IMG/VR virus record: IMGVR_UViG_3300010153_000046
Coordinates: 1-32,350 of that record
Strand: one strand, 5' to 3'
Source of the DNA: a virus
DNA: 32,350 nucleotides
Positions 4,984 through 32,350 of this stretch are shown piece by piece. How positions within the stretch are numbered: position 1 is the stretch's first letter; each line of letters opens with the position of its first letter. Both the position numbers and the translations under genes were made by a program. A model generated the notes under the pieces. It made no database searches. It saw nothing but the letters and a program-made list of their open reading frames with translations, and was not told the DNA's origin.

Positions 4984-4999
4984 TTAAAATAATTGAATT

Positions 5000-9853: not shown

Positions 9854-10062
9854 TGAAATACGGAAATTATAAAACTAAAAAAAATTTAGCCAAATATATA
9901 ATTGGTGAATTAACTAGAACGATTAACATCATGGGAGACTCAAATGGACTACAATCAGAGAATTCAATGTTTAAAGCGCCTAGAGCTAGAAAGAAAGACT
10001 TGAAAGCTAAAAGAAAAGAGATAATGTTAAAATATAATATAACTCATAAAGATTTAGTATAA
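9853..10062 (+). CDS. small basic protein of unknown function
   Basis: A 69-aa basic protein beginning at ATG 9853, one base inside the helicase stop (TAATG). Residues 45-60 are strongly basic (A-R-K-K-D-L-K-A-K-R-K-E) and the C-terminus I-T-H-K-D-L looks like the end of a helix-turn-helix. DNA binding is plausible. Translationally coupled with the helicase and with the next small gene, whose ATG overlaps its stop by one base. No family recognised. Confidence 0.55.
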   Translation: MKYGNYKTKKNLAKYIIGELTRTINIMGDSNGLQSENSMFKAPRARKKDLKAKRKEIMLKYNITHKDLV

Positions 10063-10184
10063 TGGGAAAACAAAATGATAAATTAATTAAAAATTTAAGA
10101 GAATATGACGAAAAAAAGAAAGCTAAACAGCACAAATCCAAAGTACATGGACAAAAGCAAAGAAAAAAAACCAATAATACTTAA
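10062..10184 (+). CDS. micro basic protein (40 aa)
   Basis: ATG 10062 shares one base with the preceding TAA. It is 40 aa long with many Lys and Gln and probably forms one long helix. Its last 80 nt overlap the next small gene in another frame. The overlap and extreme A-richness mean that one of the pair may not be real; the TAATG coupling favours this one. Confidence 0.4.
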   Translation: MGKQNDKLIKNLREYDEKKKAKQHKSKVHGQKQRKKTNNT

Positions 10185-13264: not shown

Positions 13265-14420
13265 AATCATCGAAAAACTAAGGACACGTAAAGGATTCTT
13301 AAAAAAAGGAGCACAATGGTTAGCAGATAAATGGGAAGTAGATATAGCTATTATTAAAGATTGTAAGAAACTTGTAACTTCTGAAGAATGGGTACAAGAA
13401 AGAATGAATAATGATAATGGACATGAATTAAGTGAAAGTCAAGCATTTTCAAAACATTTATTAGATAATGGATTAACTATGGCAGATGTAAAATCTGTCA
13501 AATTCTGGCAAAATTTTCAAGGTGAACAAAGATATAGTATAGTAACACATAATCAGTGGCATGAACAGCCTCAAGTTAAAGACGAGTTATTAAATTATTT
13601 TAAATCTAAATCACATAAAGTTAAGAAAATTAAATACTCTAAACCTAAAGATCCTGTATTATATGAAATATCATTACCAGATATACATTATGGTAAGATA
13701 ACAGACGATGATCCAGGAGCTATAGAGGATCATTATATGAAAGCTATAATAGACTTACATAGGAAAGCTGATGGCTTAGAAATAGATAGATTTTTATTAC
13801 CAGTAGGTAATGATGGTCTTAATTCAGAAGGATATTCTAGAGCTACTACTAAAGGAACACCTCAACAAGATCATTTATTGTGGAGACAATCTTTTAGAGG
13901 GTATTGGCATTTAGTTATGAAATCAATTGATTATTTAACCCAATTTGCTCCAGTAGATGTTATAGTGGTACAAGGTAATCATGATTTTGAACGCATGTTT
14001 TATGTGGGAGAAGTTTTAGATGCTATGTACCATAATAATAAAAATGTAAATATAGATAATGGGTTAAATACTCGAAAATATTACGAATATGGAACTAATA
14101 TGATTATGTTTACACATGGTGATAAAGAAAAAGCTCAAGAGTTACCTTTATTAATTGCTACTGAAGAACCAGAAATGTGGAGTAGATGTAAAGTTAGGGA
14201 AGTGCATTGTGGACATAAACATAAAGAAATGCTTAATGAATATATGGGAACTAAAGTTAGATTTATCCCTTCTATTTGTGGTAATGACGCCTGGCATAAA
14301 ACACAAGGTTATGTTGGTACATTAAGATGTGGACAAGCATTTATCTGGAATAAGAATAGAGGATTGGAAGGGTATCTTCAAACTAATGTTATGAATTATG
14401 CCTTGGAAGAAGAAATATAG
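13251..14420 (+). CDS. calcineurin-like metallophosphoesterase with N-terminal HTH
   Basis: A 389-aa protein. Residues about 11-40 resemble a helix-turn-helix (F-L-K-K-G-A-Q-W-L-A-D-K-W-E-V-D). The catalytic domain has the five metal-binding blocks: L-P-D144-I-H146, V-G-N-D188 with N191, G242-N-H-D245, T-H289-G, and H-C-G-H322-K-H324. This fold covers SbcD/Mre11-type nucleases, phosphodiesterases and protein phosphatases; in phage replication blocks it is usually taken to be a DNA end-processing nuclease. It overlaps primase by 14 nt and the resolvase by 23 nt, which supports DNA metabolism. The substrate cannot be read from the sequence. Confidence 0.85.
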   Translation: MNRDEIIEKLRTRKGFLKKGAQWLADKWEVDIAIIKDCKKLVTSEEWVQERMNNDNGHELSESQAFSKHLLDNGLTMADVKSVKFWQNFQGEQRYSIVTHNQWHEQPQVKDELLNYFKSKSHKVKKIKYSKPKDPVLYEISLPDIHYGKITDDDPGAIEDHYMKAIIDLHRKADGLEIDRFLLPVGNDGLNSEGYSRATTKGTPQQDHLLWRQSFRGYWHLVMKSIDYLTQFAPVDVIVVQGNHDFERMFYVGEVLDAMYHNNKNVNIDNGLNTRKYYEYGTNMIMFTHGDKEKAQELPLLIATEEPEMWSRCKVREVHCGHKHKEMLNEYMGTKVRFIPSICGNDAWHKTQGYVGTLRCGQAFIWNKNRGLEGYLQTNVMNYALEEEI

Positions 14421-14841
14421 AGCAAAACGTTCTAAAGTAAAGAATGCAAAGAAAAGTACTTATAATGGTCATAATTTTCAATCTAATTTAGAATTATATT
14501 GTTATAAGCAACTTGAAGAGGCAAAAGTTCCTATAGAATATGAAGCAACTACTTTTACAATATTCGACGGATTAGTTTATCCTCAAGCATGTTACGAGGG
14601 TACAGCTAAAAAACTATATAATAAAGGATCTAAGATCAGGCCTATAACTTATACTCCTGATTTTGTAGATCCAAACGGTAAATTTATTATCGAAACAAAA
14701 GGCTATGCAAATGAGTCTTTTCCTTTAAGATGGAAACTATTTAAGAAACATCTTAGAGATAACAATCATCACTATGTACTTTTTATGCCAAGAAATAAAA
14801 AGCAAGTAGATGAGGTTGTAGATCTTATCAAACAATTATAG
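14398..14841 (+). CDS. endonuclease I-like Holliday junction resolvase (PD-(D/E)XK)
   Basis: A 147-aa nuclease. After a very basic N-terminus come S29-N-L-E32 (helix with the first catalytic Glu), Y-T-P-D88-F-V and I-I-E99-T-K101-G-Y, the E...PD...ExK array of T7 endonuclease I and related phage nucleases. These enzymes resolve branched DNA before packaging and can degrade host DNA. The size fits. It overlaps the metallophosphoesterase by 23 nt and ends the replication block with a TAG stop, followed by a terminator-like structure. Confidence 0.8.
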   Translation: MPWKKKYRAKRSKVKNAKKSTYNGHNFQSNLELYCYKQLEEAKVPIEYEATTFTIFDGLVYPQACYEGTAKKLYNKGSKIRPITYTPDFVDPNGKFIIETKGYANESFPLRWKLFKKHLRDNNHHYVLFMPRNKKQVDEVVDLIKQL

Positions 14842-14896
14842 GTTAGGGGATAACAGAGGCCACGCGCGCAGTAGGACGAAACCCCTTTCCTTTTTT
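14842..14896 (+). terminator. terminator-like element with GC-rich loop and alternative pairing
   Basis: AGGGG (14845-14849) can pair with CCCCT (14882-14886), followed by TTCC and six T. The same AGGGG lies in the loop of a competing GTTA/TAAC hairpin (14842-14845 with 14851-14854), so the two structures are mutually exclusive. The 32-nt interior holds a GC-rich island (GGCCACGCGCGCAG) out of keeping with the AT-rich surroundings. It could be a plain terminator or a switch. Confidence 0.45.
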
Positions 14897-14897
14897 A

Positions 14898-14913
14898 TTA
14901 ATCAATTAAACAC
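14898..14913 (+). promoter_or_regulatory. leader motif TTAATCAATTAAACAC
   Basis: A 16-nt sequence 8 nt before ATG 14922 that is repeated exactly at 16282-16297, 7 nt before ATG 16305. Its last 11 bases also stand directly before ATG 4236. Constant spacing to starts suggests a translation-initiation enhancer of the A/T-rich kind used in Bacteroidota. Confidence 0.45.
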
Positions 14914-14921
14914 TTAAAATT

Positions 14922-15116
14922 ATGGCAGAATTAGTCAGTCCCTGCTGTGGGGCAGAATACAGCGATATGGTAGATTCACAAGGATATGAAGCACATGAAT
15001 GTTCTTCATGTAAAGATATATTTGCTGAACCAATTGAAGATTATGAATATGACGAAGCTCAAAAAGAAGCTAAGGCAGAAGCTGAAGCGGATGAACGTAG
15101 AGATATGGGATTATGA
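14922..15116 (+). CDS. small zinc-ribbon protein
   Basis: A 64-aa protein with C-C-G-A near the start (residues 8-9) and C-S-S-C in the middle, spaced like one zinc ribbon, then an acidic helical tail of Glu, Ala and Lys with a final R-R-D-M-G-L. Small proteins of this layout are frequent in phages and usually have no known role. Starts after the shared leader motif and overlaps the VWA protein gene by 4 nt (ATGA), so it belongs to the same operon and could be an adaptor for it. Confidence 0.65.
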   Translation: MAELVSPCCGAEYSDMVDSQGYEAHECSSCKDIFAEPIEDYEYDEAQKEAKAEAEADERRDMGL

Positions 15117-16285
15117 GAACAGTCCAAGATCAACTTTCTAGAATATCTAAAACATTGATATTTTCAGAACCTTTCTACGGTATATTTCTTATTGGATTAC
15201 AAAAACAATTCACTAAGAGCTGTGCTACCGCAGGTGTAGGAAAACACGGTATAGGAATGAGACTAGTAATTAATCCAGATTTCTTTGGAGAACTAGAAGA
15301 ATTACATCAACAGGGCCTATTAAAACATGAGCTATTACACATAGCTTTTGGACATATTATACTGTCAGATAGATACCCTGATAAAAAGCTATTTAATATT
15401 GCGGCGGATATAGAAATCAACCAATATATTGACAGCAAAATGCTCCCGCCAGGTGGCTTACAGTTAGATTCTTTCCCTGGTATATATTTACCTCGTAAAG
15501 CTGGGACAAAAACGTACTATGATTTATTAAGCCAAACCTGTGACGGTAAAGGAGGGTCTTCTAATGAAGAACTCGATAAACTACTTAGTGAAATGAATGG
15601 TGAAAGCCAGTATTGTCACAAACACTGGGATGAAATAAGTGAACTCCCTGAAGCAGAAAAGAAGTTAGTGCAAAAGCAATATGAACATCAGATGAAACAG
15701 ACCGCGGAAGAGATACAGAAAAAATGTGGATCCATCCCAGGGGAGTTAGCTGAGATCATTGAAAGGCTATTTACTATAACGCCTCCTAAGTTCAATTGGA
15801 AGCAATATCTTAAAAGGTTTATTAATAACGCATCTAAAGTCTATACTAAAAAGCTTAGGAGAAAGAATAACAAACGTTACGCTGGTAACCCGGGCCTTAA
15901 GATTAAACATAGAAATCACGTGCTAGTAGGTGTGGATACTTCTGGGTCAGTAAGTAGTGAAGAGCTAGTAGAGTTTATGCATGAGTTAACACATATGCAT
16001 AGAACTGGTAATCAAATTACTGTTGCACAATTTGATACAACGTTAACAGACGTCTCACCTTTTGATCCTAAGAAAAGCTGGGAAATCAAAGGTAGAGGTG
16101 GAACTCATTTTCAGGCCGTGGTAGATCATTATAATGACCCTAAACTTAGATATTCTGCTTTTATATGTCTTACAGATGGAGAAGCAGGTAATCCTGAGAA
16201 CTGCCCAAAGAATGCATTATGGGTACACAGCAGTATGTCTAGGATAAACGAAGATTTACCTGGAATTAAAATACAATTAAATTAA
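15113..16285 (+). CDS. VWA protein with zincin-like domain (DUF2201 type)
   Basis: A 390-aa protein. N-terminal domain: L-K-H72-E-L-L-H76-I-A-F-G-H81, a zinc metallopeptidase HExxH with third His, then N-I-A-A-D-I-E-I-N, the known signature of the putative metallopeptidase domain of DUF2201. A helical linker follows (about 190-260). C-terminal VWA domain: MIDAS D275-T-S-G-S279, G329-G-T331 and L-T-D355-G-E. VWA proteins of this family work with MoxR AAA+ ATPases, and one is encoded immediately downstream. Such pairs act as metal-dependent chaperones or complex remodelers. Full motifs suggest both domains are active. Substrate unknown. Confidence 0.85.
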   Translation: MRTVQDQLSRISKTLIFSEPFYGIFLIGLQKQFTKSCATAGVGKHGIGMRLVINPDFFGELEELHQQGLLKHELLHIAFGHIILSDRYPDKKLFNIAADIEINQYIDSKMLPPGGLQLDSFPGIYLPRKAGTKTYYDLLSQTCDGKGGSSNEELDKLLSEMNGESQYCHKHWDEISELPEAEKKLVQKQYEHQMKQTAEEIQKKCGSIPGELAEIIERLFTITPPKFNWKQYLKRFINNASKVYTKKLRRKNNKRYAGNPGLKIKHRNHVLVGVDTSGSVSSEELVEFMHELTHMHRTGNQITVAQFDTTLTDVSPFDPKKSWEIKGRGGTHFQAVVDHYNDPKLRYSAFICLTDGEAGNPENCPKNALWVHSSMSRINEDLPGIKIQLN

Positions 16286-16297
16286 TCAATTAAACAC
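16282..16297 (+). promoter_or_regulatory. leader motif TTAATCAATTAAACAC, second copy
   Basis: Identical over 16 nt to 14898-14913 and at nearly the same distance (7 nt against 8 nt) from its start codon. It overlaps the last bases of the VWA gene, so selection there acts on both coding and leader function. Confidence 0.45.
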
Positions 16298-16304
16298 AAA
16301 TAAA

Positions 16305-17480
16305 ATGAATGAAGTAAATTTAAATATTGATGAACTACAAGATTTTGTAGGGCACATTATAACAAACAACCGACACTTACAAGCAGGCGGAAAGAAGCCT
16401 GTAGCAATTGAAGTAGTAGGTGAGTCTGGTATTGGTAAAACAACTAGTATTATGGATATGACTCAAAAACACGGCTTAGATTTTGTTAAGCTAAACTTAG
16501 CACAGATTGAGGAGTTAGGTGATTTAGTAGGATTTCCTATTAAACAGTTCCAAATGTGGATAGAAAAAGATGGTAAAAAGAGAGGTAAATGGGTAGATGA
16601 GGTAGCAGTTAATGATCATTCTAAAGGAGGATGGCAAACTACTGGTAAAAGTAGAATGTCTTATAGTGCTCCTGAATGGATTGCTGATAAGAAAGCCGGT
16701 GGTGTATTACTTCTTGATGACTGGAACCGTGCAGATACAAGATTTATCCAAGCATGTATGGAGCTAGTAGATAGACAAACTTATATATCATGGACCCTCC
16801 CTAAAGACTGGCACATTATATTAACCGCTAATCCTGATAATGGTGATTATATGGTAAATAGTACTGATCCTGCACAAAAGACTAGATATATTACAGCAAA
16901 CTTAAAGTTTGATATTAATGTGTGGGCCCGCTGGGCGGAGGAGAATAACATGGATACTAGATGTATTAATTTCTTGTTGATGCATCCTGAGTTAGTTACA
17001 CAGGAAACTAACGCGCGTTCTATTTCAACATTCTTTAATAGTATTTCAAGTATAAAGAGTTTTGAAGACCAGCTACCATTAATCCAAATGATTGGAGAAG
17101 GCTCAGTGGGTAATGAATTCGCATCTATGTTTACTACATTTATTAATAATAAATTAGATAAACTCGTAACTCCACGAGAAATAGTGACCGGAGATGAAGA
17201 AGTATTACCTCAATTAAGAGAGTGTATAGGTAAAGATGATAGTTATAGAGCTGATATAGCTAGCCTTTTAGCAACCAGAGTAGCTAATTTCTCTGTTGCT
17301 TTCTCAAAAACGGACACCGTAACTCAAAAAGTGCAAGAACGTTTGATTAAGCTATGCACTTCTGACTATTTTACTGATGATTTAAAGTACTTAGTAGTTA
17401 GGACCATATTCAATGGAAATAAAGCAAAGTTTAACAAAATGATGATGAATCCAGCCATCATTAAAATGACTATTAAGTAA
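16305..17480 (+). CDS. MoxR-type AAA+ ATPase
   Basis: A 391-aa ATPase. Walker A G39-E-S-G-I-G-K-T-T47, the D-L-V-G-F-P segment (MoxR-type 'dllG'), Walker B L-L-L-D138-D139-W-N-R-A-D typical of MoxR proteins, and sensor 1 in L-T-A-N176-P-D-N. The C-terminal part is all helical. MoxR ATPases remodel or mature protein complexes together with VWA proteins. Here the VWA partner ends 19 nt upstream and an unknown protein begins at the last base of this gene, giving a three-gene unit. It may serve virion assembly or act on host complexes; the sequence does not decide. Confidence 0.85.
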   Translation: MNEVNLNIDELQDFVGHIITNNRHLQAGGKKPVAIEVVGESGIGKTTSIMDMTQKHGLDFVKLNLAQIEELGDLVGFPIKQFQMWIEKDGKKRGKWVDEVAVNDHSKGGWQTTGKSRMSYSAPEWIADKKAGGVLLLDDWNRADTRFIQACMELVDRQTYISWTLPKDWHIILTANPDNGDYMVNSTDPAQKTRYITANLKFDINVWARWAEENNMDTRCINFLLMHPELVTQETNARSISTFFNSISSIKSFEDQLPLIQMIGEGSVGNEFASMFTTFINNKLDKLVTPREIVTGDEEVLPQLRECIGKDDSYRADIASLLATRVANFSVAFSKTDTVTQKVQERLIKLCTSDYFTDDLKYLVVRTIFNGNKAKFNKMMMNPAIIKMTIK

Positions 17481-20094: not shown

Positions 20095-20489
20095 CAAAGA
20101 AAAAAAGTAGTAAAATAAAAATGTCTGCCCCAGAAGGATATGAACTTGATACAGAATACGTTATGAGTAGTACTCACAATGAATTATATTGGGATACAGA
20201 TAGAAATGGAAAAGATACTATTGAAAGTGAGGCATTTGCGGCCAAGGTTGACAGCATTATGAAGAAAATAACAGATCTTTTAAAAGAAAAGAATAAAGCT
20301 TATGGCAACACGGCGTTAAACCCTACTAATATATTTAGTAAACTTAGCGCGGTAGAAGCTATATGCGCAAGATTAGATGATAAAATAGCACGAATAAAAA
20401 ATAAAGGAATTAATGATAAAACAGAGGATACAGTAGATGACCTAATAGGATACCTATTATTACTTAAAATATCAATGAATGAAAAATAA
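20091..20489 (+). CDS. DUF1599-like protein (MazG-type helical nucleotide-pool protein)
   Basis: A 132-aa protein. From residue 50 on it reads as an all-helical domain with L-L-K-E-K-N-K-A-Y-G-N, then I-C-A-R-L-D-D-K-I-A-R-I, and E-D-T-V-D-D-L-I-G-Y-L-L-L-L. This R-L-x-D-K...D-x-x-x-D-L-I-G-Y order is that of DUF1599 (nucleotide modification associated domain), related to MazG-like NTP pyrophosphohydrolases. It may hydrolyse a nucleotide or keep a modified one out of DNA. The first 40 residues are a Lys-rich and polar extension. It overlaps the SET gene by 11 nt. Confidence 0.65.
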   Translation: MTKKKSSKIKMSAPEGYELDTEYVMSSTHNELYWDTDRNGKDTIESEAFAAKVDSIMKKITDLLKEKNKAYGNTALNPTNIFSKLSAVEAICARLDDKIARIKNKGINDKTEDTVDDLIGYLLLLKISMNEK

Positions 20490-20808
20490 AGAAGAATACA
20501 AACCATTACCTGACTACTTAGCTATAGGCCCTTCAACAATTCATGGAGCAGGAATATTTGCTACAGAAGATGTACCAAAAGAGATTGAAATTGGTATAAG
20601 TCATATATATGACCCTAATTTTCAGCATGACTATATAAGAACTCCTTTAGGAGGATTTGTAAATCATTCTGAAAGTCCTAATTGTGAGTTAATAGATGAT
20701 GTTGAGAATACAGATTACAAGAAGATAAAAACTAGTAAAAAGATAAATGAAGGAGAAGAATTAACATTAAAGTATAGTTTATACGATATATGTGACTATC
20801 TTAGTTAA
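20479..20808 (+). CDS. SET-domain protein, probable lysine methyltransferase (copy 2)
   Basis: A 109-aa minimal SET domain with well-kept motifs: H22-G-A-G-I-F-A-T-E (entry strand), F-V-N62-H-S64-E-S-P-N67-C (SAM-binding N-H-S-x-x-P-N pseudoknot), and G-E-E-L-T-L-K-Y99-S as the end strand. It keeps N-H-S and P-N-C, which copy 1 at 3761 has lost, so it is the better candidate for an active methyltransferase. It is the last gene of the rightward block, ending just before the shared terminator. Protein lysine is the expected target; which protein is unknown. Confidence 0.75.
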   Translation: MKNKEEYKPLPDYLAIGPSTIHGAGIFATEDVPKEIEIGISHIYDPNFQHDYIRTPLGGFVNHSESPNCELIDDVENTDYKKIKTSKKINEGEELTLKYSLYDICDYLS

Positions 20809-20814: not shown

Positions 20815-20839
20815 AAAGGGGTTTTACACCCCTTTTTTT
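20815..20839. terminator. bidirectional terminator between convergent blocks
   Basis: AAAGGGGT (20815-20822) pairs with ACCCCTTT (20828-20835) around TTTAC, followed by more T on the plus strand; on the minus strand the A-rich left flank gives TTTCTTTTC after the stem. The stop codon of the leftward giant gene (20838-20840) overlaps the end of the element, so the last codons of that gene are part of the signal. Confidence 0.8.
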
Positions 20840-23800
20840 ACCTTGCTGGTTGGTCATATGGATTCCTTTTATCTGTCTCATGTACTTCAAGCAATCTAAA
20901 TAATTGTGTTAACCCAGGAGTTAAACGTTTTGTTTCATAAAAGAAAGGACTTTTATCTCTTTTATTCTCAATTCCCATAAGAGCCTCATACGATTCTTGA
21001 GTAAGATTATTTATCCATCTTTGCATATCTACACTTAATCCTATTAAAGGTATTGGGTTTTTAACCATTTGCGTTAAATCTGTTGGATTTAATAAAAATC
21101 CTATCTCTAACATAGCCTTAGATAATATCATATTAGCCTTTCTAGTAACCCATGTATGGTTATAAATAGGTTCCCCGTCATCTCCTTCCATTCCTAAAGC
21201 AAATATAGTTGTAAGGAGGGCAAATATTGCTTGAAGTTCTGCTGCCATAGCCCTTAATTGACCTCTTTTCATATCATAAAAATCTTCTTTTTCCATATTT
21301 TGTATATGTGGGTCGTCTAGATTTTCTGTTCTATGTTTATAATATTCTTTTTCTGCACGCTTCTCATTCATCTTTGTTCCTTTATACAATCCAAAGGTCA
21401 ATACTTCTATAGCAAGTTTAGTAAATTTTACTCCTGTATCTTTCACAAGCTCTATACCACTCAATTCTAGATCTACTAATTCATTCCTCATTATTTTATA
21501 ACGCCCCATTTCATAAGTATTTGTTTTTTCAACATATCTAAATTTTCCTATTCTCTCTTCAATTAATCTTGGGGCCCATCCTTTAAATTGCATAAATAAT
21601 TTACCTAGTAATGTAGTATCTGCAGCAATTTTAGAATCATGATGCATACTTCCCTTTATTGAACTTGTAGTATATTTTACCATTTCTCTAAACCTTATCT
21701 CTCCCTCTTCACTTAATCCTGTAAATACAGATTTCTCTTCTGTATTAACTGTAAATATTTCAAATAAAGATTTCCTACCTTCTGGTAATCGTTTTAATCT
21801 TTTAGGCATTCCATTCTCATCAACACCATAGTTTCTCATCATTGCTGTTAAAGTAGTATTATCTAAAACATTATCTGCTAGTCTAAATGGAGCAAATAAG
21901 GTATCCATACTCACAATTCTAACTAATTTTCCAGCAGATACTTTTAAAGCACGTCTTGCCCCCATATCTTCTTGCCAAATCTCAAAATAATTAACAATAG
22001 TATTAAATCTATTACGATCTTTAAAAGGATCTCTTCTAGCAGCTTTAAGCTGCTTCTCATTATAAGCAGTGCCTTTTTTACTTTCTATCCATAATGCCAT
22101 CTGACCTACAGTTCCTGCAGCTGCTGCTGGTATAACTGCAAGTCCTAATTTACTAGCACTAAAATATGACATTAATGAACTTACTGTTCTATTCATACTA
22201 TAACCCATAAACTCTATATCCTTACTTTGTATACGTTGTCCATATAAGGAATCTTTTACAAAAAGTCTCTCAAAATGATCTGCTGCCTCTGCCCCCATTT
22301 TTGATTTAGATATACGTCCTGCTACATTTTCTATTAACCCTCCTGTAGGACTTGTAGCTAATGTTTCTGTAGACGGATCTTGTAAATACCCTAATAAAGT
22401 TAAATTAATTTCTTCAATCTTATTCTTCTCAGCATAATTATATACCGTATCTCCCATTAGTTTTAAAGAGTTTCCTAGATCTGTACTTTTTAACCTTAAA
22501 TCTATTTCTCCTGTATCAGGATCTATTAAAGTTGCTGGAGACGTATATAATAAAGGTATAGTCTGAATTAGTTTTCCATTCTCATCTACATGTTCAGGAT
22601 TTACTTCATCCTGTCTAATCTTTAAGTTTTCTAAAAAGCCTTTAAGTAAACTTTTACTACTAAATCCTCCTTGAGATAGAGAATCAATAACATCTCTGTG
22701 AATATTACCTACAAAGTTATCTGCAAGATTCATATTAGTAAGCTCACTAAACTCTTTATTCTTTTGAATATAAAAATTATAAAAACCTAATAATGAAGGA
22801 CTATTCTTTATTCTTAAGTACTCTTCAGAATATTGCTCTTCTACAACTTGTTCTTTTAACTCTGTATATATATATGAGTATTTTCCTGTCCACATACTTT
22901 TTGATGATGGATCATTATCTCGTAAAAAGTTTGCTTTAAGTATATCTCTTGTTTGTTTTTGACTTTTTCTTGGGGCTACACGTTTTTCTCCTTCATATAA
23001 AGCTTCATAATCTTTAAAGTTTCTCTCTATTGAAGCAAATTGAACTTTCTTTCTTTTAAGAAATCTTTCATTAGCATCTTTTTTTAATTTATAATGTCTT
23101 TTTGCCCAAGCAGTATCCCCTTCCTCAAAAGCTTTATTTCTTCTTTCCCAGAATTCTTTTTTGATCTTTGGATATAAGTTGCCAGTCTCAGGATTTAAAA
23201 GTAACTTATATGCATCTTGAAGATTTCCAAAAGCTTCCCTTAATTTACTTTTATGTTCTTCAATCTCTTCATATAATTTCTTTTCCGCCTTTCGTGTAGT
23301 ATTATTTACTCGTTCTAAATACTTTCTAGCTACTTGAAATATAGGATGAGAATGAGATGCATCCGATTCTAACCATTTAAGGGGCCCAAATTCTCTCTGT
23401 GCTCTTGTAGCATCTACAATACCAACATTATCTGCTAATTCTAATATTCTATTAGCCCTTTCTTCTTTAAGAGTGTCATACATTTGATTAATAGGGATAG
23501 TATATCTTTCTCTAGCTACTTTTATATTTCTTTTTAAAGCTTTCTCTTCTTTAGTATCTCCTAAGTTTTTATAATATTCCTCAGAATTTTCAGTTAATAA
23601 TACTGCCCTAGATACCTCTTTATGGAATTCATTTAATTCTTCTAATTGAATATACTCAGGGTCTTCCTTATCTTGTATAGGTAATCTATCTTCTAGCTCA
23701 CTTATAAGAGTCCCAGCTTCTGCATATAAATCAGATATATCTCCAGACATCTGCATTAGTCTTACAGCTTTATCTATCTTTTCTATTTTATATCTTAAAG

Positions 23801-25835
23801 CTTGTTTCTTCTGAGTATTCTTTTCTGTTTCTAATTTTGCTTTTAATACAGCACGCTGCTGTAACTTAGGCTGAAGTAACTTATCTAATCCTTTCTTTTG
23901 TGTTAACTCATTAGCTACAGGTATTGGACTTAAATGAGGATCACCGGATATAAGTTTTGCAACCTTTTTCCCATCTTTAGTCTCAGTCTCTACATCAAAA
24001 GCCATCTTTAATGTAGTTATAGTTGGTGTAAGAACTTTCTCTCCCTTCATACCCTCCCATTTATACTGAACATGAATAGGTATAATTCTAGAACGTCTAA
24101 TTTTTTCAACGCCATAGAATTGTTTTAGAATACTTTTATATGCTCCAATTTGCATATTATACCCATCTTCCTTACTTCCAAATGGGCTTTCCATTATTCT
24201 AGCCTTTTGGCCAAACCCAGATACTTGTCTAGGACTTATAAATTTCCAATCATATATAGAAGCACTTCCATCTGAGAAAATAGCTAGTACATCTACAGTA
24301 CCTGCAGTATCTGCATAATACTTATTTCGATCTTCTGCTGGAGCATATACCATTGCTTCAGATTTAATAACAACTTTACCTTTCTTTCCTGTTTCCTTAT
24401 TTATATCTCGTTGTTGTTTTTTAATCTCCTTTACAATATTCTTAACATTTTGATGTATTACATTCCATTGCGTCTCTGTCATTATTTGTTTCCCCGTGTC
24501 TGGAGAAAACTTAGCTTGTTTTTTAATATCTTCAAAATTATTTTTTGTAGCAGGCATATTTCCTGCGTAATAATCTATTAGATTTTGCATAGTAGAATGA
24601 TGATAAGTACCTTGATTACGCTTAAGCTCATTAGGCTGTCTTTGGTTTACATCTCTCATCCATTCTAAGCCTTTCTTCTTAATAAGTTTTTGTTGGTACA
24701 TATCTGAGACTCTTCCTTGAATAAAAGTATCATCAGATCTTCTCTTATATCTCTTAGTTGTCTTACCTTCTGGTAAATCGATCACGGCTTTCATCATCTT
24801 ACCTAGCTCCTTATTATCTATATCAGCCTGAACTAGGTCTTCTGCAGTTTCATCTAATCTTTGTATAATATTCTCTTGCTTATCTTTAGGAGTATCTTGA
24901 TAGAAATCTCCTAACTCTACTTGTTCTTCAGTTATTAAGTCTGCAGAATTCTGCTGTATTTCATTATTAAGAATAGACAATGCTGCTTTAGCATATGGAT
25001 CCGATGTAGGGCTACCAAGAAGTCTTTTAATCTTAGCTAAAAGTTTATTCCACCAACGTTCAAGTCTAGATAAGTTTTCAGAGAATTCATTATCCGCATC
25101 TTGATTAAGAATATGTTTAGCTATGGCCTTACCTATAGCTTCTTTCTTTAATTGTTCTTCAGAGTATTTTTGATAATTAGAGTTTTGCGCAACTTCATCA
25201 TAGACTTTATATTTATCTATATTATTCATCATAGATGCTATTAAAGGATCTCCTTTAGCTTCTAATATGTTTACAAAGAAATGGGCCGCTTCCTCAGGTA
25301 AAGTATCAATTCCCGCTCTGTCTTCAACTACATGAACAGCTTTATTAAGCATGTCCGCTTTAGCCGCAAAACCCAAAGGGTTACCTTCCCTGTCAGTAAT
25401 TTCGTTTACCGCTTTGTATTCAACTCCAATATTCTGTAGGAAAACCCGCATCTTATCTTCGATCCTTTCATCGCGTTCTTCACGTTTATCTGCTATATCT
25501 TGAAATAGGGTTAATTGGTCTATAGAAGATCTATTCCAGTTTTCTATTAAAGATGTAGTATAGGTATACTCTCTCTTACCTTCATATGCTTCTCCTGTAG
25601 CTAAAAACTTTAATCTATGCGCAGTTCCTAATTTAGAATTATACGCTGTTAATCTCTTTAGAATATTTATTTTTTGTTGATACGAAACAATACCACTATT
25701 AGGAATTTTTAAATCTCTCCCTATATTAGGGGTACTTTCATTATTTCTTAAAAATAAAGACATAGCTTCGTATTCTCCTACCTTAGCTACTAAATTTTGC
25801 CATCCAGGTAAATTTTTATTTGGACATTTAGCCAT
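20838..25835 (-). CDS. giant virion protein with RecB/Cas4-type nuclease domain (crAss-like ejected protein)
   Basis: A 1665-aa protein. Residues 165-190 carry D-T-L-P-E181-E-A-A-H185, like the zincin segment of large phage polyvalent proteins but with Glu where the first His of HExxH should be. Residues 405-570 form a RecB-family PD-(D/E)XK nuclease: H412/H413, G-T-V-D515-V-L, Y-D529-W-K531, and Q562-I-G-A-Y566. The rest is charged and mostly helical, with two short hydrophobic segments near 1230-1250 and 1530-1545. In crAss-like phages, very large proteins next to the virion RNA polymerase travel with it into the cell; the order here (polymerase, small gene, this protein) matches. The nuclease may act on entering or host DNA. 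Its ATG at 25835 overlaps the stop of the upstream gene by one base. Confidence 0.8.
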   Translation of the reverse strand: MAKCPNKNLPGWQNLVAKVGEYEAMSLFLRNNESTPNIGRDLKIPNSGIVSYQQKINILKRLTAYNSKLGTAHRLKFLATGEAYEGKREYTYTTSLIENWNRSSIDQLTLFQDIADKREERDERIEDKMRVFLQNIGVEYKAVNEITDREGNPLGFAAKADMLNKAVHVVEDRAGIDTLPEEAAHFFVNILEAKGDPLIASMMNNIDKYKVYDEVAQNSNYQKYSEEQLKKEAIGKAIAKHILNQDADNEFSENLSRLERWWNKLLAKIKRLLGSPTSDPYAKAALSILNNEIQQNSADLITEEQVELGDFYQDTPKDKQENIIQRLDETAEDLVQADIDNKELGKMMKAVIDLPEGKTTKRYKRRSDDTFIQGRVSDMYQQKLIKKKGLEWMRDVNQRQPNELKRNQGTYHHSTMQNLIDYYAGNMPATKNNFEDIKKQAKFSPDTGKQIMTETQWNVIHQNVKNIVKEIKKQQRDINKETGKKGKVVIKSEAMVYAPAEDRNKYYADTAGTVDVLAIFSDGSASIYDWKFISPRQVSGFGQKARIMESPFGSKEDGYNMQIGAYKSILKQFYGVEKIRRSRIIPIHVQYKWEGMKGEKVLTPTITTLKMAFDVETETKDGKKVAKLISGDPHLSPIPVANELTQKKGLDKLLQPKLQQRAVLKAKLETEKNTQKKQALRYKIEKIDKAVRLMQMSGDISDLYAEAGTLISELEDRLPIQDKEDPEYIQLEELNEFHKEVSRAVLLTENSEEYYKNLGDTKEEKALKRNIKVARERYTIPINQMYDTLKEERANRILELADNVGIVDATRAQREFGPLKWLESDASHSHPIFQVARKYLERVNNTTRKAEKKLYEEIEEHKSKLREAFGNLQDAYKLLLNPETGNLYPKIKKEFWERRNKAFEEGDTAWAKRHYKLKKDANERFLKRKKVQFASIERNFKDYEALYEGEKRVAPRKSQKQTRDILKANFLRDNDPSSKSMWTGKYSYIYTELKEQVVEEQYSEEYLRIKNSPSLLGFYNFYIQKNKEFSELTNMNLADNFVGNIHRDVIDSLSQGGFSSKSLLKGFLENLKIRQDEVNPEHVDENGKLIQTIPLLYTSPATLIDPDTGEIDLRLKSTDLGNSLKLMGDTVYNYAEKNKIEEINLTLLGYLQDPSTETLATSPTGGLIENVAGRISKSKMGAEAADHFERLFVKDSLYGQRIQSKDIEFMGYSMNRTVSSLMSYFSASKLGLAVIPAAAAGTVGQMALWIESKKGTAYNEKQLKAARRDPFKDRNRFNTIVNYFEIWQEDMGARRALKVSAGKLVRIVSMDTLFAPFRLADNVLDNTTLTAMMRNYGVDENGMPKRLKRLPEGRKSLFEIFTVNTEEKSVFTGLSEEGEIRFREMVKYTTSSIKGSMHHDSKIAADTTLLGKLFMQFKGWAPRLIEERIGKFRYVEKTNTYEMGRYKIMRNELVDLELSGIELVKDTGVKFTKLAIEVLTFGLYKGTKMNEKRAEKEYYKHRTENLDDPHIQNMEKEDFYDMKRGQLRAMAAELQAIFALLTTIFALGMEGDDGEPIYNHTWVTRKANMILSKAMLEIGFLLNPTDLTQMVKNPIPLIGLSVDMQRWINNLTQESYEALMGIENKRDKSPFFYETKRLTPGLTQLFRLLEVHETDKRNPYDQPAR

Positions 25836-26437
25836 TATCTATTATATTTTTCTTTAAAGTTCTTATCTTTTACGATTTCAACTTCCTTAGTTGCCTTGAC
25901 TTTTCTTGTGGGTATATGTTGAAGCAAATTTACTATGTATATAACAACACTCGAATCCTTCTCATTAAATTCTATCTTTCCTCCGTCGCGAGCTAGCTCT
26001 ACGAGCGATGCAAACTCAGCTCCTTGTTGATGCTCTTTCTGTACTTTAAATACTTGAACTGTATCTTCTTGTATATACTCTTCCATATCATAAACAGCTA
26101 CGTCAATCTCTGTTTGTACAGTTACTAAATCTTGCTCATCTTGAGATAATTCCTCTAGCTCTGCTGTTCGAATTATAACCTCCGCCTCTTCTTGTGCTTC
26201 GTCAAGAGCAATTATCTCAGGAGTAGTTACGCTTATATCCTCAAATACTTGCTCTTCATCATCTTTAGGTACAACCTTTATTTCAGGCTTCCGTATATAG
26301 GAAATATATAATCTAAGTAATTTTTCATACTCTAAAAATCCTCTTTTATTCTCCTCTCTAAGTACCTCTACTTGTTTCTTAGTTAAGACTTTAAATTCTT
26401 TTAAAAACTTTTGTATATCCTTAGGAAGTTCTGCCAT
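25835..26437 (-). CDS. 200-aa acidic protein between the two giant virion genes
   Basis: Starts 3 nt after the polymerase stop and overlaps the next gene by one base, so it is translationally coupled on both sides. The N-terminus is a Lys/Glu helix (residues 1-50), the middle (55-125) is very acidic with E-E-A-E and D-E-Q-D, and the C-terminal third (140-200) looks folded (G-G-K-I-E-F-N, V-V-I-Y-I-V-N-L-L) and ends basic. No family recognised. Between two proteins that are packaged and ejected, it is probably also a virion component or an assembly partner of them. Confidence 0.65.
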   Translation of the reverse strand: MAELPKDIQKFLKEFKVLTKKQVEVLREENKRGFLEYEKLLRLYISYIRKPEIKVVPKDDEEQVFEDISVTTPEIIALDEAQEEAEVIIRTAELEELSQDEQDLVTVQTEIDVAVYDMEEYIQEDTVQVFKVQKEHQQGAEFASLVELARDGGKIEFNEKDSSVVIYIVNLLQHIPTRKVKATKEVEIVKDKNFKEKYNR

Positions 26438-26440: not shown

Positions 26441-29400
26441 TTAACAATTTAATAATTTTTTAATTACTTTAATATGTGCAATTCCAGCATCAGTATTGCT
26501 TACTTCTGAAGATGCCACTACTATACTAATATTTGGACTACTCTCTATTAATGTCTTTAAAAGTGGAACAATTACATTTACATCTCCGTCTAGCAAAGGT
26601 ACTAAAATTTTCTTATCTGGGTATGTTTGTGCTATTTTTGATACTTTAGCTAATCCATTACGAGTTAAGTTTAAGTCGTTAAGGCCTTCAAGTTCTAACT
26701 TAGTAGGCATTACAATTATCTTAGTAGTAGGTTTAAAATTATTATCTATTGATTCTTTTAATAACCCTCTCCGTTTAGCTTGTAATGCTAATCCTTCTGA
26801 ATGAACTCCTTCTAAATTAATTGGTACTACTGGAATTCCTGCAAAAGTAAATATATTGCCTTCTAATACTTGACTATCAACTTCCTTAGATTCTGCTAAT
26901 TCACTTGCTTTAATACTCATATCCGGTGTTAATATATAATTATTTAAAGGTATAATAGATTTAGCATGTGGATTATTACTATATTCTTTTAAGTTTATAC
27001 CATCTCCTAATTTACCTACTTGTTTATATAGTATGGTTTTAGACTCTGGATTAAACATAGGTCTTTTAAATAATTTAGCTATTACTGGTAACCTTTTTCC
27101 AGCTTTCTGTAATCTTTGTTTCTTTAACTCAGAAATACTAGGATCAGGACCCCATACTTTTAAATAAGGACGTGATGCATGCCATGAAGTAGTTTTTATC
27201 TCTAACTCATTATTATTTATTGCCGGATAAGGACTTACTCCTCTTTCTTGATCTTGTGGTGATATATTTTTAGGCCTTACAGTAGGTACTAATAATTCAT
27301 TATTCCAATTATTCTTATAGAACTGCTCATAAAAACGATTCTCATCTATAGCCCCCATTTTATATCTTTCTATAGCTTCTGTAGCTAACTTTGAATACAA
27401 CCTAGGTGGTACTATTCTCATAAAAGATACTGGGCTTTTATTCATTCCAGATTGAATAATAGCTAATTTAACTAAATCTTTAGCTAAGTTCTGATTCTCT
27501 ATAGACCCATCATATAATTCAGTAAAGGCCTCTGACAGTAAATTTACTTCAGTAGAAGGCATACTTCTTGCAAAAGCACGAACGTTATCAAAACTATACC
27601 CTAAGTTCTTAGGATCAGTATGTATTTGCAATTGTGAAAATAACTCTTTAGCTAGTATATTAGTTGGATTCTCCTTTTGGAATTTTCTCCATCTTCTAGC
27701 AACAGAATTTGGCCCTTGCACTAGTCGTGACACCTCATCTGATAATGTTTGTCCTCCTTCTTTATTAATTACTCCTGAAGATATTAAGAAGGTTACAAAG
27801 TCATTTTCAGCTGTTCCAATAGCTTTCATAATATCTTGCTCAGAGTTATATTTTATTCTACTCCCCATATCATCTACTAATCTATTTATAACAGCGTTAT
27901 CATCAGTTAAATAGAAATCTTTTAATAACGGTAATACATTATTAGAAGCTTTAACCATAGTAGACATCCATGAGTCTTCTATAAACTCTGTGGTACCTTT
28001 TATTCCAAGAGAGTCGGTATTTTGATCTGCCTGTAAAAATCTATCTAATGATTTTTTCTTAAGTTTAGCGTGTAATCTATTCATAGGCGCTTTACTATCA
28101 TATGCAATCATAGAGGTAAATTCACTAACTTCTAAAGCTTCTTTTCTATATTGATTATACAACTGTAATACTGCTAATTGCCCAGCATTGAACTCTATCG
28201 ATTCTTCTTGTGTAGATTGAGTGCCTAACCACTTTGTAAGTTGTTCTACTGAAATAGGGCCTTTATGTATAGCCTTTCCAGATGCTGTTTCATAAGGAGC
28301 TGCTACTCTTTTAGCTATATCATGTCTTTTAGGATTACTAGGTAATATAAAAGATTTTGTTTTAGGTAGTTCTGCAACAAACTCTCTTAAAATAGGTTGT
28401 GTAAAGAATCTTCCTAATGTTTCAATAGAGACTCCTTTACGTAATAATGTAAGATATGTATTAATAGTTTCCATATTTGCATTTAACCCATATACAAAAG
28501 GTTTCTTAGCTACATCTACAAATGCATTTATAAACTCCCCTATAATTTCATTTATATAATTAATATCATTTATATCTTTACTGTTATTTAATGTATGCGC
28601 GCTTATGTCTGGAGACACCTCTACAGTAAGCAATTCTTCTAAACTTGTAGGTAGATTATTATCAACTACTTGATTAAGATTATAAGCCTGTGTTTTAATA
28701 TGACTAGTATTTTCAAGAGCAGCTATACCTAAAGCTTCCATTCCTTCCCAGAAACGTCGTCCCATTTCTTGTTTATGAGCAAAGTTTAAAACGCTACTAA
28801 ATGTTACATCATACTCAATAGGAGTTCCAGTCTCAGATGCTATATCATCTGCTAAATTCTCTAATCGTGTAGCTCCTACAGGTCTTATTAATTGTTCAAA
28901 GTTAAAAGGTCTTGTTAGAATATGTCTAGATATATCGAGTTCCCTATTCTGTAAAGCAGGTGTTGCATTTTTTAAGTCATTAGGTAAGAACTTAAAATAT
29001 TTAGACTTAGCTAAAGCTTCATCTAACTCTTTAAATGTCTCTTCAGCTTGATATATTTGATCTGTATATCCTGATACAATACTTAGCTTGTCTAATATTA
29101 AATCCTCTAATTGTTTATCTATAATTTTCTTAGCGTTTCTAGTTGGGGCTTGAGCACGTTGCGTTTTTAATACGTCTATTTGACCATTTAAAAGTTTAAC
29201 TGCTTCTGTATTATATACATCAGAGAGATCCTCAGTAGCTTTATTTAACATCTCCTCAAGAGTATTAAAATACTTCCTCATTATTTTCTCTGAATCTTGA
29301 ATATCTGCCATCTCTAGCATTCTTCTATAGGTAGTATTATCATGCCTACGTAACGCCTGTACTTTAGTTAAATCATCAGTACTTTCATCTAAATATGGTA

Positions 29401-32350
29401 TCTTAATTAATTTCTTAATACCTCCTTCTCTAACTGTAGTATAACTAGGAAAAGCCATAGTTAATTTATCAATATCATAATCTGAACCAGCTTTAACGAC
29501 AATTTCTGACGGAGTCATAACAGCTTCCCCAGCTTCTTTAGGTAAAAATCCTTTAATAGTAATAGCCTCAATAGAGTTAAGACCAGATGTTGGAATTCTA
29601 AATCCTATTAAATCTAATAATTCTGAATCTCCAACTACATTTCCATCAGAATCTATAATAGTCCCATTAACTACATTGATATTATGCCCTAAAAATTGTT
29701 TAAAATAATGAGGTAACATAACTTCCATTCCTAGAACTTCTGAATTATCCTCAGACATTCTATAAAAATTGAGAAGACTGGATTCAGAACCATAAATATG
29801 ATCTTTCTGTTTTGTAATATCTGCTATAACTCTCCCAGATTCAGCAAACTCCATCCCAGTTGATGATACTTGTGCGTATGATCCTCCAAAATATTTCTTA
29901 GCTATTACTTCACTTTTAAATAAAGAATGTAGTACACTGTCTAATTTAGGCTTATTACTTACTAACTCTAAGAACTTATCATCACTTGCTAATAATATCT
30001 CTAAACCTTCTAACTCATTATCATCTAATTTTCTTTGCTTAGTCTCTTGAGTAAGAGCTTCTTTAATTTTTTCGAAGTCTTCAACTTGATTAAATTCTGA
30101 ATCAAAGCCTAATTTATGTACAAAATTATTAAATGTTTGCTCTGTTAGAGAATTATGTGCATTTTTATATTCAGTAGCTAATGATGCTGCTTCAGGAGAT
30201 ACAGCTTGTCCTCTATCATATAAATTAGATAGTATAAGCGCAACTCGTTGTATACCACGTCCTACCTTATCTTTTACTTTAGTCCCCATATCTACTTGAA
30301 CTCCTAAATAATCATAATATAAAGTTTGAATATTTGAAGGGTTAATATTATCTTCACTATATCTTCCACTATTATCATAGAATTGTTGATGCTGTCCAGT
30401 AATAGGATCAACTTTACTTCCAAGTTTCACACCACTTTCAAATACAGCTATACCTACTTGATGTTTAACCATATCTTCATGTAAGCTTTTTAATACAGTT
30501 GCTTCTGCTCTTCCTGTTATAGGATTATATCTTTGAAGCATTTGAGGTAATAAAGGTGCTAATGATAATTTATAATATGCAGGACTAAATAACTCTTTAG
30601 ATTGTGTAGGCCCATAATATTGAGGCTTTAAAGGAGTAAAATAAATCATTTCTTCTGAAGATAATTCTTCTCCTTTCTGCACTTTTTGGTATAATTCAAG
30701 ATGGTTTAATGTAATATCTCCTGTTCTAGTTAAAAACTCTATATACTCATCGATTGTTATATATCCTTGAGCATCTCCTTCGTTATACTTTAAGTAAGGT
30801 GCAGCTGCGTCAGGACCTAAAGTTCTCATATACTCTGCATAGTATTGAGATCTTGCTTCTATGTCTTTAAGTACTATAGTCCTTACTTTATCATCAGGTA
30901 TTTTATTATCGTATCTTGTAATATTTTGACGTAGCCAGTCTGAAATCCCAGGCCCTGTAATAGCAAACTTCTTAACCCCATGAGGACCAGCTGTTCTTTT
31001 ATATAACGATTCTTTTGTGAAAAATCCTACATCTCCATAAAATAATTTTAATTGCTCTAACGCTGATAATCTATCTCTTAATTCAAATGCTTCTATAAAA
31101 TCAAATAACTCTTTAGAAGTTACTTTTAACTTACTAGAAGCTTTAGCTTTAGGATCTACTGTCTTCCCTAAAGTTCTATTAAAAGTCTCAGCATCTATAC
31201 CATAAAGATGTACCATGTTATCCCCAAGTCTGACAATCATTCCACTTGCTTCTAACCTGTCTGTAATAGGAGCTATAGATTCTCCTATATTAATATCTAT
31301 TAAAGTCTTAATTGGAGTTAAGTACTGGGATACAATTTCTTTAGCGGATAATCTACTATCTTTATCTTGTAATAATTCTAATAAAGTTTGCTCTCCAGTT
31401 TCCGTAGTAGGCATATCATTTAAGAAATCAAATGTACGAAGCTGTCTAGCATTCTCTTTAAATCCTGTAATATCATTTCCTATATTATCTCTAATAAGAT
31501 TTAATGTTACTTGCATTTCATCTACTAAATGCTCTACTAACATATTTATAGACTCTTGTTTATTTACACTAGGTGTAATCTTCTTACCATTCTTATTAAG
31601 TAATTCAATACCAAATACAGTTTTCTTTTCAGACGCTTGTAAGAATGGATACCTTCCATTTAAGGTATTATGTATATACATAGCATCTCTATCCACAGGT
31701 GTTAAGTCCTTAGTTACTTTACCAATCATTCCTGAGTCTTCCGGAGTTGCTCCTTCTAATGTTACTACTTTAATCTTTCCTCCCTTTACTACATGTTGTA
31801 GCCATTGGGATCCTAGCATAACTTCCTTTGCATCTTGTATATACTGAGGTATAATACCTCTACTTAAAGAATTAGAGACTCTAGTTAAAAAGTTTCCTAA
31901 AGTTACTCCATAAGCCTTCTTATTGTCAGGAGTTATGTGTTGAAGCTCAATAGTATTATTATAGTATGGGCGTTCCAGACTTACTAAAGAATTCAATCTT
32001 GCCGCTACCCCTGTATCTTCATCTTTAAATAAATCTTCTACCTCTAAAGTAATATCCTCTCCTTGTTTATCTAAAAAGAAATTTTTAATATAAGTAGTTT
32101 GCGCAACTATTTCATTAAAGGCCTCTGGATTATTCTTTAAAGCTTCCTTATTAGTAAACTCAACCCCTATTAATTCCAAGAAGTTAAAGTAATGATCTCC
32201 TCTTAATTTTGGTAATGTTTTATATGTAACCCCGGAGATAGGGCCAAACTTAAATTTCTTTTTAGAGTCAATAAATATCCCTCCTGTTTCATCATTTATC
32301 TTTAAAAATCCATCTTCTAATCTTGCTCTATCTCTAAAGTTAGCTTGCCA
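26441..32350 (-). CDS. virion RNA polymerase of crAss-like type, partial (5' end beyond window)
   Basis: The frame is open to the right edge, giving at least 1969 aa; no start is visible (a TTG at 32179 only looks like one because 58 more in-frame codons precede it). The catalytic signature is G-S-D-Y-D-I-D at 29468-29485, the metal-binding DxDxD of two-barrel RNA polymerases, preceded by G-F-R-I-P-T-S-G-L-N-S-I, which corresponds to the Arg-x-Pro block of the beta' subunit. Both occur in this form in the single-chain crAss-like phage polymerase packaged in the virion to transcribe early genes on entry. At the C-terminus (26444-26863) is a macro-domain-like segment: G-N-I-F, V-V-P-I-N, G-V-H-S-E-G-L-A-L-Q, then I-L-V-P-L-L-D-G-D. 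It heads the leftward late operon with 25835-26437 and 20838-25835. Confidence 0.9.
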   Translation of the reverse strand, partial: WQANFRDRARLEDGFLKINDETGGIFIDSKKKFKFGPISGVTYKTLPKLRGDHYFNFLELIGVEFTNKEALKNNPEAFNEIVAQTTYIKNFFLDKQGEDITLEVEDLFKDEDTGVAARLNSLVSLERPYYNNTIELQHITPDNKKAYGVTLGNFLTRVSNSLSRGIIPQYIQDAKEVMLGSQWLQHVVKGGKIKVVTLEGATPEDSGMIGKVTKDLTPVDRDAMYIHNTLNGRYPFLQASEKKTVFGIELLNKNGKKITPSVNKQESINMLVEHLVDEMQVTLNLIRDNIGNDITGFKENARQLRTFDFLNDMPTTETGEQTLLELLQDKDSRLSAKEIVSQYLTPIKTLIDINIGESIAPITDRLEASGMIVRLGDNMVHLYGIDAETFNRTLGKTVDPKAKASSKLKVTSKELFDFIEAFELRDRLSALEQLKLFYGDVGFFTKESLYKRTAGPHGVKKFAITGPGISDWLRQNITRYDNKIPDDKVRTIVLKDIEARSQYYAEYMRTLGPDAAAPYLKYNEGDAQGYITIDEYIEFLTRTGDITLNHLELYQKVQKGEELSSEEMIYFTPLKPQYYGPTQSKELFSPAYYKLSLAPLLPQMLQRYNPITGRAEATVLKSLHEDMVKHQVGIAVFESGVKLGSKVDPITGQHQQFYDNSGRYSEDNINPSNIQTLYYDYLGVQVDMGTKVKDKVGRGIQRVALILSNLYDRGQAVSPEAASLATEYKNAHNSLTEQTFNNFVHKLGFDSEFNQVEDFEKIKEALTQETKQRKLDDNELEGLEILLASDDKFLELVSNKPKLDSVLHSLFKSEVIAKKYFGGSYAQVSSTGMEFAESGRVIADITKQKDHIYGSESSLLNFYRMSEDNSEVLGMEVMLPHYFKQFLGHNINVVNGTIIDSDGNVVGDSELLDLIGFRIPTSGLNSIEAITIKGFLPKEAGEAVMTPSEIVVKAGSDYDIDKLTMAFPSYTTVREGGIKKLIKIPYLDESTDDLTKVQALRRHDNTTYRRMLEMADIQDSEKIMRKYFNTLEEMLNKATEDLSDVYNTEAVKLLNGQIDVLKTQRAQAPTRNAKKIIDKQLEDLILDKLSIVSGYTDQIYQAEETFKELDEALAKSKYFKFLPNDLKNATPALQNRELDISRHILTRPFNFEQLIRPVGATRLENLADDIASETGTPIEYDVTFSSVLNFAHKQEMGRRFWEGMEALGIAALENTSHIKTQAYNLNQVVDNNLPTSLEELLTVEVSPDISAHTLNNSKDINDINYINEIIGEFINAFVDVAKKPFVYGLNANMETINTYLTLLRKGVSIETLGRFFTQPILREFVAELPKTKSFILPSNPKRHDIAKRVAAPYETASGKAIHKGPISVEQLTKWLGTQSTQEESIEFNAGQLAVLQLYNQYRKEALEVSEFTSMIAYDSKAPMNRLHAKLKKKSLDRFLQADQNTDSLGIKGTTEFIEDSWMSTMVKASNNVLPLLKDFYLTDDNAVINRLVDDMGSRIKYNSEQDIMKAIGTAENDFVTFLISSGVINKEGGQTLSDEVSRLVQGPNSVARRWRKFQKENPTNILAKELFSQLQIHTDPKNLGYSFDNVRAFARSMPSTEVNLLSEAFTELYDGSIENQNLAKDLVKLAIIQSGMNKSPVSFMRIVPPRLYSKLATEAIERYKMGAIDENRFYEQFYKNNWNNELLVPTVRPKNISPQDQERGVSPYPAINNNELEIKTTSWHASRPYLKVWGPDPSISELKKQRLQKAGKRLPVIAKLFKRPMFNPESKTILYKQVGKLGDGINLKEYSNNPHAKSIIPLNNYILTPDMSIKASELAESKEVDSQVLEGNIFTFAGIPVVPINLEGVHSEGLALQAKRRGLLKESIDNNFKPTTKIIVMPTKLELEGLNDLNLTRNGLAKVSKIAQTYPDKKILVPLLDGDVNVIVPLLKTLIESSPNISIVVASSEVSNTDAGIAHIKVIKKLLNC

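Follow-up and report, generated by a model that had tools for sequence, protein, structure and literature searches.

In this study, the C-terminal end of a crAss-like virion RNA polymerase was recognised as a macro-like domain, best explained as a diverged relative of the DarG/TARG1 macro domains. The polymerase is encoded in the window, i.e. the whole stretch of DNA that was analysed, whose 32,350 bases constitute the entire IMG/VR entry. As judged from sequence profiles, its macro-type homology is confirmed over the whole length of the domain, with a resemblance well above chance. Delivered on the polymerase before phage expression, the domain would most likely bind or remove ADP-ribose, a reading that we favour with about even confidence. 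Alignment of related polymerases supports its placement as an accessory domain, in a variable C-terminal slot outside the polymerase body. Phage macro domains are already known, as is multidomain virion cargo; in the literature searched, no description was found of a virion RNA polymerase bearing a macro domain, nor of a polymerase slot that takes up SLOG, NADAR and macro modules.

The virion RNA polymerase and its neighbours

The record ends within the polymerase gene, so that the N-terminal part of the protein is lacking. The 1969 residues that could be seen matched the structure of the phi14:2 virion RNA polymerase (PDB 6vr4, phmmer E 4.9e-29), and tblastn with this open reading frame (ORF) retrieved 140 phage records, Crassvirales for the most part. 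Residues 956-961 (SDYDID) were aligned with SDFDIDK of phi14:2. A virion RNA polymerase was what the first-pass annotation had named here, and homology to phi14:2 gp66, DxDxD motif included, confirmed the ORF at 26441-32350 as that of a crAss-like phage. By analogy with the homologous polymerases of phi14:2 and crAss001, the polymerase and the module that it carries are presumably packaged in the virion. The following features were delineated:

26441..32350, minus strand: ORF of the crAss-like virion RNA polymerase, truncated at its N-terminus, 1969 residues seen
29468..29482, minus strand: DYDID (DxDxD) catalytic motif, residues 957-961, from the sequence and its alignment with phi14:2
25835..26437, minus strand: acidic, cysteine-free ORF of 200 residues between the polymerase and the next cargo gene, no function assigned
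20838..25835, minus strand: gp65/gp49-like polymerase-associated cargo protein of 1665 residues, placed like phi14:2 g065, with one cysteine (position 4)

Other ORFs of the window were read by eye. Small ORFs at 3761-4168 and 20479-20808 looked SET-domain-like (GVFATDEIPKDT...NHNKDFNC and GIFATEDVPKEIEIG...NHSESPNCE, respectively), which is unusual for a phage, and a VWA/metallopeptidase-like ORF was followed by one for a MoxR-type AAA+ ATPase (15113-17480). In a related locus, L002 (cr108_1), the polymerase was broken exactly at the catalytic motif (9836-10130): the first ORF ended in ...KAGSD and the second began about 290 bases later, which suggests an intron or another interruption.

A macro-type domain at the polymerase C-terminus

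The first-pass annotation had proposed a macro-like module at 26444-26863, i.e. residues 1830-1969 of the 1969-residue translation, fused to the C-terminus of the polymerase. The fusion was borne out by a continuous reading frame, and the motifs lay where they had been put: GNIF at 1831-1834, VVPIN at 1841-1845, GVHSEGLA at 1848-1855 and ILVPLLDGD at 1915-1923. To these is added MPTK (1881-1884), absent from that list, which carries the equivalent of the catalytic lysine of DarG and TARG1. The domain was delimited as follows:

26444..26872, minus strand: macro-like domain, residues 1827-1969 (about 143 residues), based on hhalign with null sets, hmmsearch, the structural model and the DarG/TARG1 matches

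At the sequence level, the independent evidence for macro homology is a profile match that exceeds its null sets. The viral macro profile comprised 80 macro proteins, all stand-alone and taken from viral contigs, that had been collected without use of the window. Compared with it by hhalign, the domain scored 44.1 over 116 columns, and the runs together gave scores of 40-44, probabilities of 90-93% and 116-122 colinear columns. Maxima were 27.0 for 400 random natural segments of 155 residues (from ORFs of related phage loci) and 21.0 for 200 shuffles; the reversed sequence reached 15.0, and the means of the null sets were 12-13. The macro resemblance claimed from the letters alone was thus upheld. 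Likewise, hmmsearch with the viral macro profile gave 17.8 bits (E 1.1e-7 for a single sequence).

Pfam (even at E up to 10), NCBIfam and PHROGs did not match the domain, and PF01661 found zero matches in the whole record with controls working; simple HMM annotation would therefore miss it. A PDB sequence search with the domain returned a chance glycosyltransferase match alone (E 1.2). Close homologues were encountered neither in viral, phage, plasmid and species-genome collections nor by exact-peptide scans of viral and genome contigs, and tblastn against phages and plasmids (E up to 10) gave insignificant matches, among them one DarG-like macro protein at E 7. When P[VI]NxxGxHxxGLA was searched for as a degenerate pattern in DNA, three stretches were retrieved, none of them fused to a polymerase; two were macro proteins outside polymerases, on contigs of 264-267 kb.

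Predicted structure

The AlphaFold model of the domain from its single sequence was poor (pLDDT 48.6, pTM 0.40) and displayed an alternation of strands and helices as in the macro core. Foldseek found no significant match with this model. In VIA its leading matches were mixed, with MACROD2 ranking second (Z 5.3) and alphavirus macrodomains also present, none of them beyond the Z range that common arrangements reach. A second model, for which an alignment of 37 macro domains (A3) served as input, reached a pLDDT of 75.3 and a pTM of 0.70. DarG macrodomains ranked first with it in Foldseek (E 2e-4, TM 0.60) and in VIA (Z 12.7 over 123 residues, rmsd 2.6), TARG1 obtained Z 12.1, and both outranked the macro domains of ALC1, PARP9, macroH2A and ThsA. 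As the alignment itself consisted of macro domains, this model is a consistency check and not an independent proof.

Pocket and catalytic residues

Ligand-binding and catalytic residues were taken from Thermus DarG (PMC5179494), with their numbering verified on 5m31, and the window equivalents were assigned by alignment A3:

26816..26830, minus strand: VVPIN, residues 1841-1845, N1845 being the equivalent of DarG N22 (A3; PMC5179494)
26786..26809, minus strand: first loop GVHSEGLA, residues 1848-1855 (GVMGKG in DarG), from A3
26699..26701, minus strand: K1884 (in MPTK), corresponding to the catalytic residue K80 in DarG and to the TARG1 lysine (A3; PMC5179494)
26582..26590, minus strand: degenerate second loop DGD, residues 1921-1923 (GAGNGG in DarG), from A3

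Residues N8 (N1832), N22 (N1845), Q34 (Q1857), T79 (T1883) and K80 (K1884) of DarG were retained. K1884 and N1845 occupy invariant columns of A3, and two features of a DarG/TARG1-type hydrolase, catalytic lysine and pocket asparagine, are therewith present. Replacements concerned T20 (Pro), G28 (Ser), K29 (Glu, E1852) and W83 (Leu, L1887), and the loop 2 glycines G117 and G119 were missing, with DGD instead. In DarG, K80A abolished activity and N22A was the second worst mutation, and K29E and G119E strongly reduced the activity of the Thermus protein (PMC5179494).

The first loop is short of one usual glycine, as the first-pass annotation had pointed out, and the second has lost its GCG too: GVHSEG and LLDGDV stand in place of GVMGKG and LGCGNGG, so that neither the GxG of loop 1 nor a glycine-rich loop 2 is displayed. 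Both traits are typical of macro domains, not universal. The lost glycines weaken the claim that ADP-ribose is bound in the usual mode. Since the centre of the chemistry is kept and the phosphate-binding loops are altered, activity, an altered ligand and loss of function are all possible, and because of E1852, the lost glycines and L1887 the domain was not filed as an active DarG-type hydrolase.

A variable C-terminal slot

Whether the module was general or specific had been left by the first-pass annotation to an alignment of crAss-like polymerase C-termini. In this alignment it lay outside the polymerase body. The polymerases shared an end block, Y-(R/I)-P-I-x-K-x-G-(N/D)...E...S-I-(I/L)-P-x-N, and the body ended at about window residue 1804 in eight aligned polymerases, on which ground the macro-like segment as a general part of the polymerase body was rejected. 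The corresponding features are:

26939..27022, minus strand: final block conserved in the polymerase body (ILYKQVGKLGDGINLKEY...SIIPLNN), approximately residues 1777-1804, aligned with L017, L046, L034, L027, L044, L059 and L012
26873..26938, minus strand: linker between body and module, residues 1805-1826, unconserved in the alignment of polymerase ends

Among relatives, the slot contained SLOG plus NADAR, SLOG plus an A1S_2505-type macro domain, a helicase, RNase H, or nothing. The L189 tail (4511-5902) combined a cpYpsA SLOG domain (PF12694, E 1.7e-9) with NADAR (PF08719, E 8.4e-14), both exceeding the curated Pfam cut-offs, and the L059 tail (13025-15106) a SLOG/DprA-like domain (phrog_768, E 3.2e-38) with an A1S_2505 domain (NF049995, E 1e-35). 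A1S_2505-type domains also occupied the slot in L009 (cr50_1, residues 3750-3882), followed there by a Dda-like helicase, and in L072 (residues 4040-4174); they were found upstream of the polymerase core too (L075, L079, L053 and L048). A DprA-like annotation was recorded for cr109_1. Helicases were present in 4 of 25 tails, and further tails displayed RNase H, a PD-(D/E)XK nuclease or, in one case, ART-PolyVal. Multidomain transcription proteins of crAss-like phages with a PD-(D/E)XK nuclease are noted in PMC7886860. The FpV4 tail had a SprT-like segment under the cut-off (E 0.0037), and tails of phi14:2, crAss001, L017 and L044 were without recognised domain.

The macro type of the window was found in none of the relatives scanned (80 loci in the first polymerase scan and 16 in the second, partly overlapping), and none of the 16 loci of the second tail scan had a macro-like tail. 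The A1S_2505 group matched the viral macro profile (P 4.4e-9, probability 96%), which brings the crAss-like cargo proteins with macro-type domains to nine, window included, L054 and L048 being counted on weak split matches. Taken together, SLOG, NADAR and A1S_2505-type macro domains in relatives suggest that modules can be exchanged at the C-terminus of the polymerase, which would serve as a slot for their delivery.

Some readings of the tails were discarded. A NADAR-like look, noted by eye in the middle of the L059 tail and in the L067 tail, was not borne out when these were compared with the NADAR domain of L189, which Pfam confirms. In L048, Pfam lent no support to an ART-like domain downstream of the macro-type one. 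Two further modules recurred. An ASCH/PUA-looking one (ILxGxKT...GxYxLPDGxxVxL) was seen in the tails of L031, L032, L035, L036, L037, L022, L043, L188, L191 and L200, with no convincing Pfam or PHROGs match among the tails scanned. The other (xxFIGxGxxxSxTxxYxxxA...VSxNGN...), in the L027/L197 and L188 tails, gave no significant match in Pfam or PHROGs and is possibly another Rossmann/SLOG-like family.

Terminal cysteines of cargo proteins

The polymerase of the window has a single cysteine:

26444..26446, minus strand: C1969, final residue and sole cysteine in the 1969 residues of the polymerase, from the sequence

The next cargo protein (gp65/gp49-like) likewise has a single one, C4 (25824-25826). 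In phi14:2, one cysteine was counted in g067 (final residue), two in g066 (positions 3 and 2179 of 2180) and one in g065 (position 3); in crAss001, gp50 has cysteines at 5, 1334 and 2404, and gp49 at 5 alone. Overall, the giant crAss-like cargo proteins were nearly devoid of cysteine (0.09%) except at their ends. Of 88 boundaries at which giant ORFs adjoin (about 90 loci), 84 had the same arrangement: a cysteine in the last 14 residues of the upstream protein was accompanied by one near the methionine of the downstream protein, counts which are not independent events since the loci are related. C-terminal cysteines occurred in 0 of 59 last ORFs, and the chance level per stretch of 14 residues was 1.2%. 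An N-terminal cysteine was present in 18 of 18 polymerases with a short N-terminal part, against 2 of 19 in which the upstream partner was apparently fused. The polymerase-gp65 fusions that were inspected had no cysteine at the junction, with one cysteine-rich outlier (L091).

It is possible that the terminal cysteines link the cargo end to end in a disulfide-bonded chain. Disulfides exist elsewhere in crassvirus virions (PMC10172136), and no report of such a chain was found in the literature searched, a scope outside which the phi14:2 polymerase paper falls. Macro-type domains embedded in cargo were cysteine-free in all nine proteins, whereas each of the 80 stand-alone ones had at least one cysteine (mean 3.1); part of the divergence of the window domain is thus due to the cargo-wide cysteine rule.

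Relation to known systems

The DarG macrodomain of DarTG (PDB 5m31, 5m3e and 5m3i) and TARG1/OARD1 (4j5s) provided the best structural and profile matches. Identity was about 20%; loop 1 differs (GVMGKG to GVHSEG), as do loop 2 (GCGNGG to DGD) and W83 (Leu), and the domain is distinguished from both DarG and TARG1 by its lack of cysteine and its fusion to a polymerase. Reading the ORFs of the record, a fragment, by eye revealed no DarT near the polymerase. The A1S_2505 family (NF049995, phrog_2072), annotated as macrodomain or ADP-ribosyltransferase in some phages, shares the GxHxxGxA and TK motifs with the window domain and occupies the same slot in L059, cr50_1 and L072. The NF049995 HMM did not match the window domain at E up to 1, and a four-sequence A1S_2505 profile did so weakly in hhalign (P 0.006).

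The Macro, NADAR and SLOG domains described in phages by Iyer et al. 2022 (PMC9503650) belong to the same classes as those of the crAss-like polymerase slot. There, they are typically stand-alone, unlike those of the slot, which are fused to the virion RNA polymerase; crAss phages go unmentioned in the text of PMC9503650. Polyvalent proteins (Iyer et al. 2017, PMC5512222) are likewise large, virion-packaged deliverers of several enzyme domains, and the text of PMC5512222 mentions neither crAss phages nor macro domains. Polymerase body, DxDxD and gene order with the gp65/gp49-like protein were as in phi14:2 (gp66, PDB 6vr4) and crAss001 (gp50), yet in both of these the slot is a tail without recognised domain where the window has its macro-like domain.

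Proposed function and alternatives

As part of a cargo protein, the macro domain would enter the cell with the polymerase, ahead of any phage gene expression. In crAss001, the virion cargo comprises gp47, gp49 and gp50 (polymerase proteins), thought to be partly unfolded at ejection (PMC10172136). Inside the host, the domain would bind or remove ADP-ribose; the target could be the DNA as it comes in, an early transcript, a protein or an immune signal that derives from NAD and diffuses, and the first minutes of phage transcription would thereby be protected. We infer ADP-ribose as the ligand, and adducts or signals that contain it are the probable substrates of the domain. Iyer et al. 2022 (PMC9503650) propose that Macro, NADAR and SLOG domains of phages act early in infection against immune signals based on NAD-ADPr. 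A role in counter-defence or NAD signalling is plausible, and it is strengthened by relatives whose slot likewise holds SLOG, NADAR or other macro-type domains: on the simplest reading, some crAss-like phages may load a NAD-ADPr counter-immune toolbox (Macro, NADAR, SLOG) onto their polymerase. A wider scheme joins this slot for ADP-ribose-processing modules to a cargo held together by its terminal cysteines, threaded into the cell and released by reduction, with the macro domain clearing ADP-ribose from the template or quenching a signal before expression; as a whole, it is rather unlikely to hold.

Other readings of the same residues have to be weighed. The domain might be a sensor that binds but does not catalyse, keeping an ADP-ribose or nucleotide pocket and tuning the polymerase or anchoring it to ADP-ribosylated DNA or a host protein. 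Retention of the catalytic-type lysine and two pocket asparagines beside changed phosphate-binding loops would agree with this, as would the fact that macro domains serve as readers besides erasers (PMC9503650), and regulation would fit a direct polymerase fusion. Yet no conserved contact to the polymerase body was visible, and a role specific to the polymerase is made less likely by the differing module types in the slots of relatives; we consider such a sensor unlikely. More doubtful is a structural remnant, i.e. a macro fold captured long ago that has lost cysteines and ligand binding and persists ahead of the terminal cysteine as a spacer or for packaging. Erosion of both glycine-rich loops speaks for it, as does the contrast between cysteine-free embedded domains (nine of nine) and stand-alone ones with cysteine (80 of 80). 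However, the cargo-wide purge accounts for the cysteine loss, and joint survival of N1845, Q1857, T1883 and K1884 is unexpected in a decayed domain.

The fusion itself could be incidental if the domain acted on its own, either cut off by proteolysis or translated from a start inside the ORF. An in-frame ATG (Met1811) does occur in the linker, and phages commonly encode stand-alone macro proteins (a macro consensus matched 538 records), but the reading frame is unbroken and its final residue is the conserved terminal cysteine of the whole cargo class, making a free form very improbable. Least credible is an unrelated alpha/beta domain whose motifs resemble those of macro domains by chance: although curated HMMs were without match and the single-sequence model had low confidence and mixed leading matches, the profile score lay far beyond both null sets and was colinear across 116-122 columns. 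A macro domain directed at ADP-ribose thus remains our preferred reading.

Implications for crAss-like phages

The crAss-like phages form an order that dominates the virome of the human gut and is related to many phages of the environment. If the terminal-cysteine rule is true in the form of disulfide links, ordering and ejection of their megadalton cargo would become directly testable. If the domain functions as proposed, its activity would be present from time zero, ahead of the point at which a defence such as DarTG stops the infection. The slot idea offers a simple rule for finding further payloads, including those that domain databases miss.
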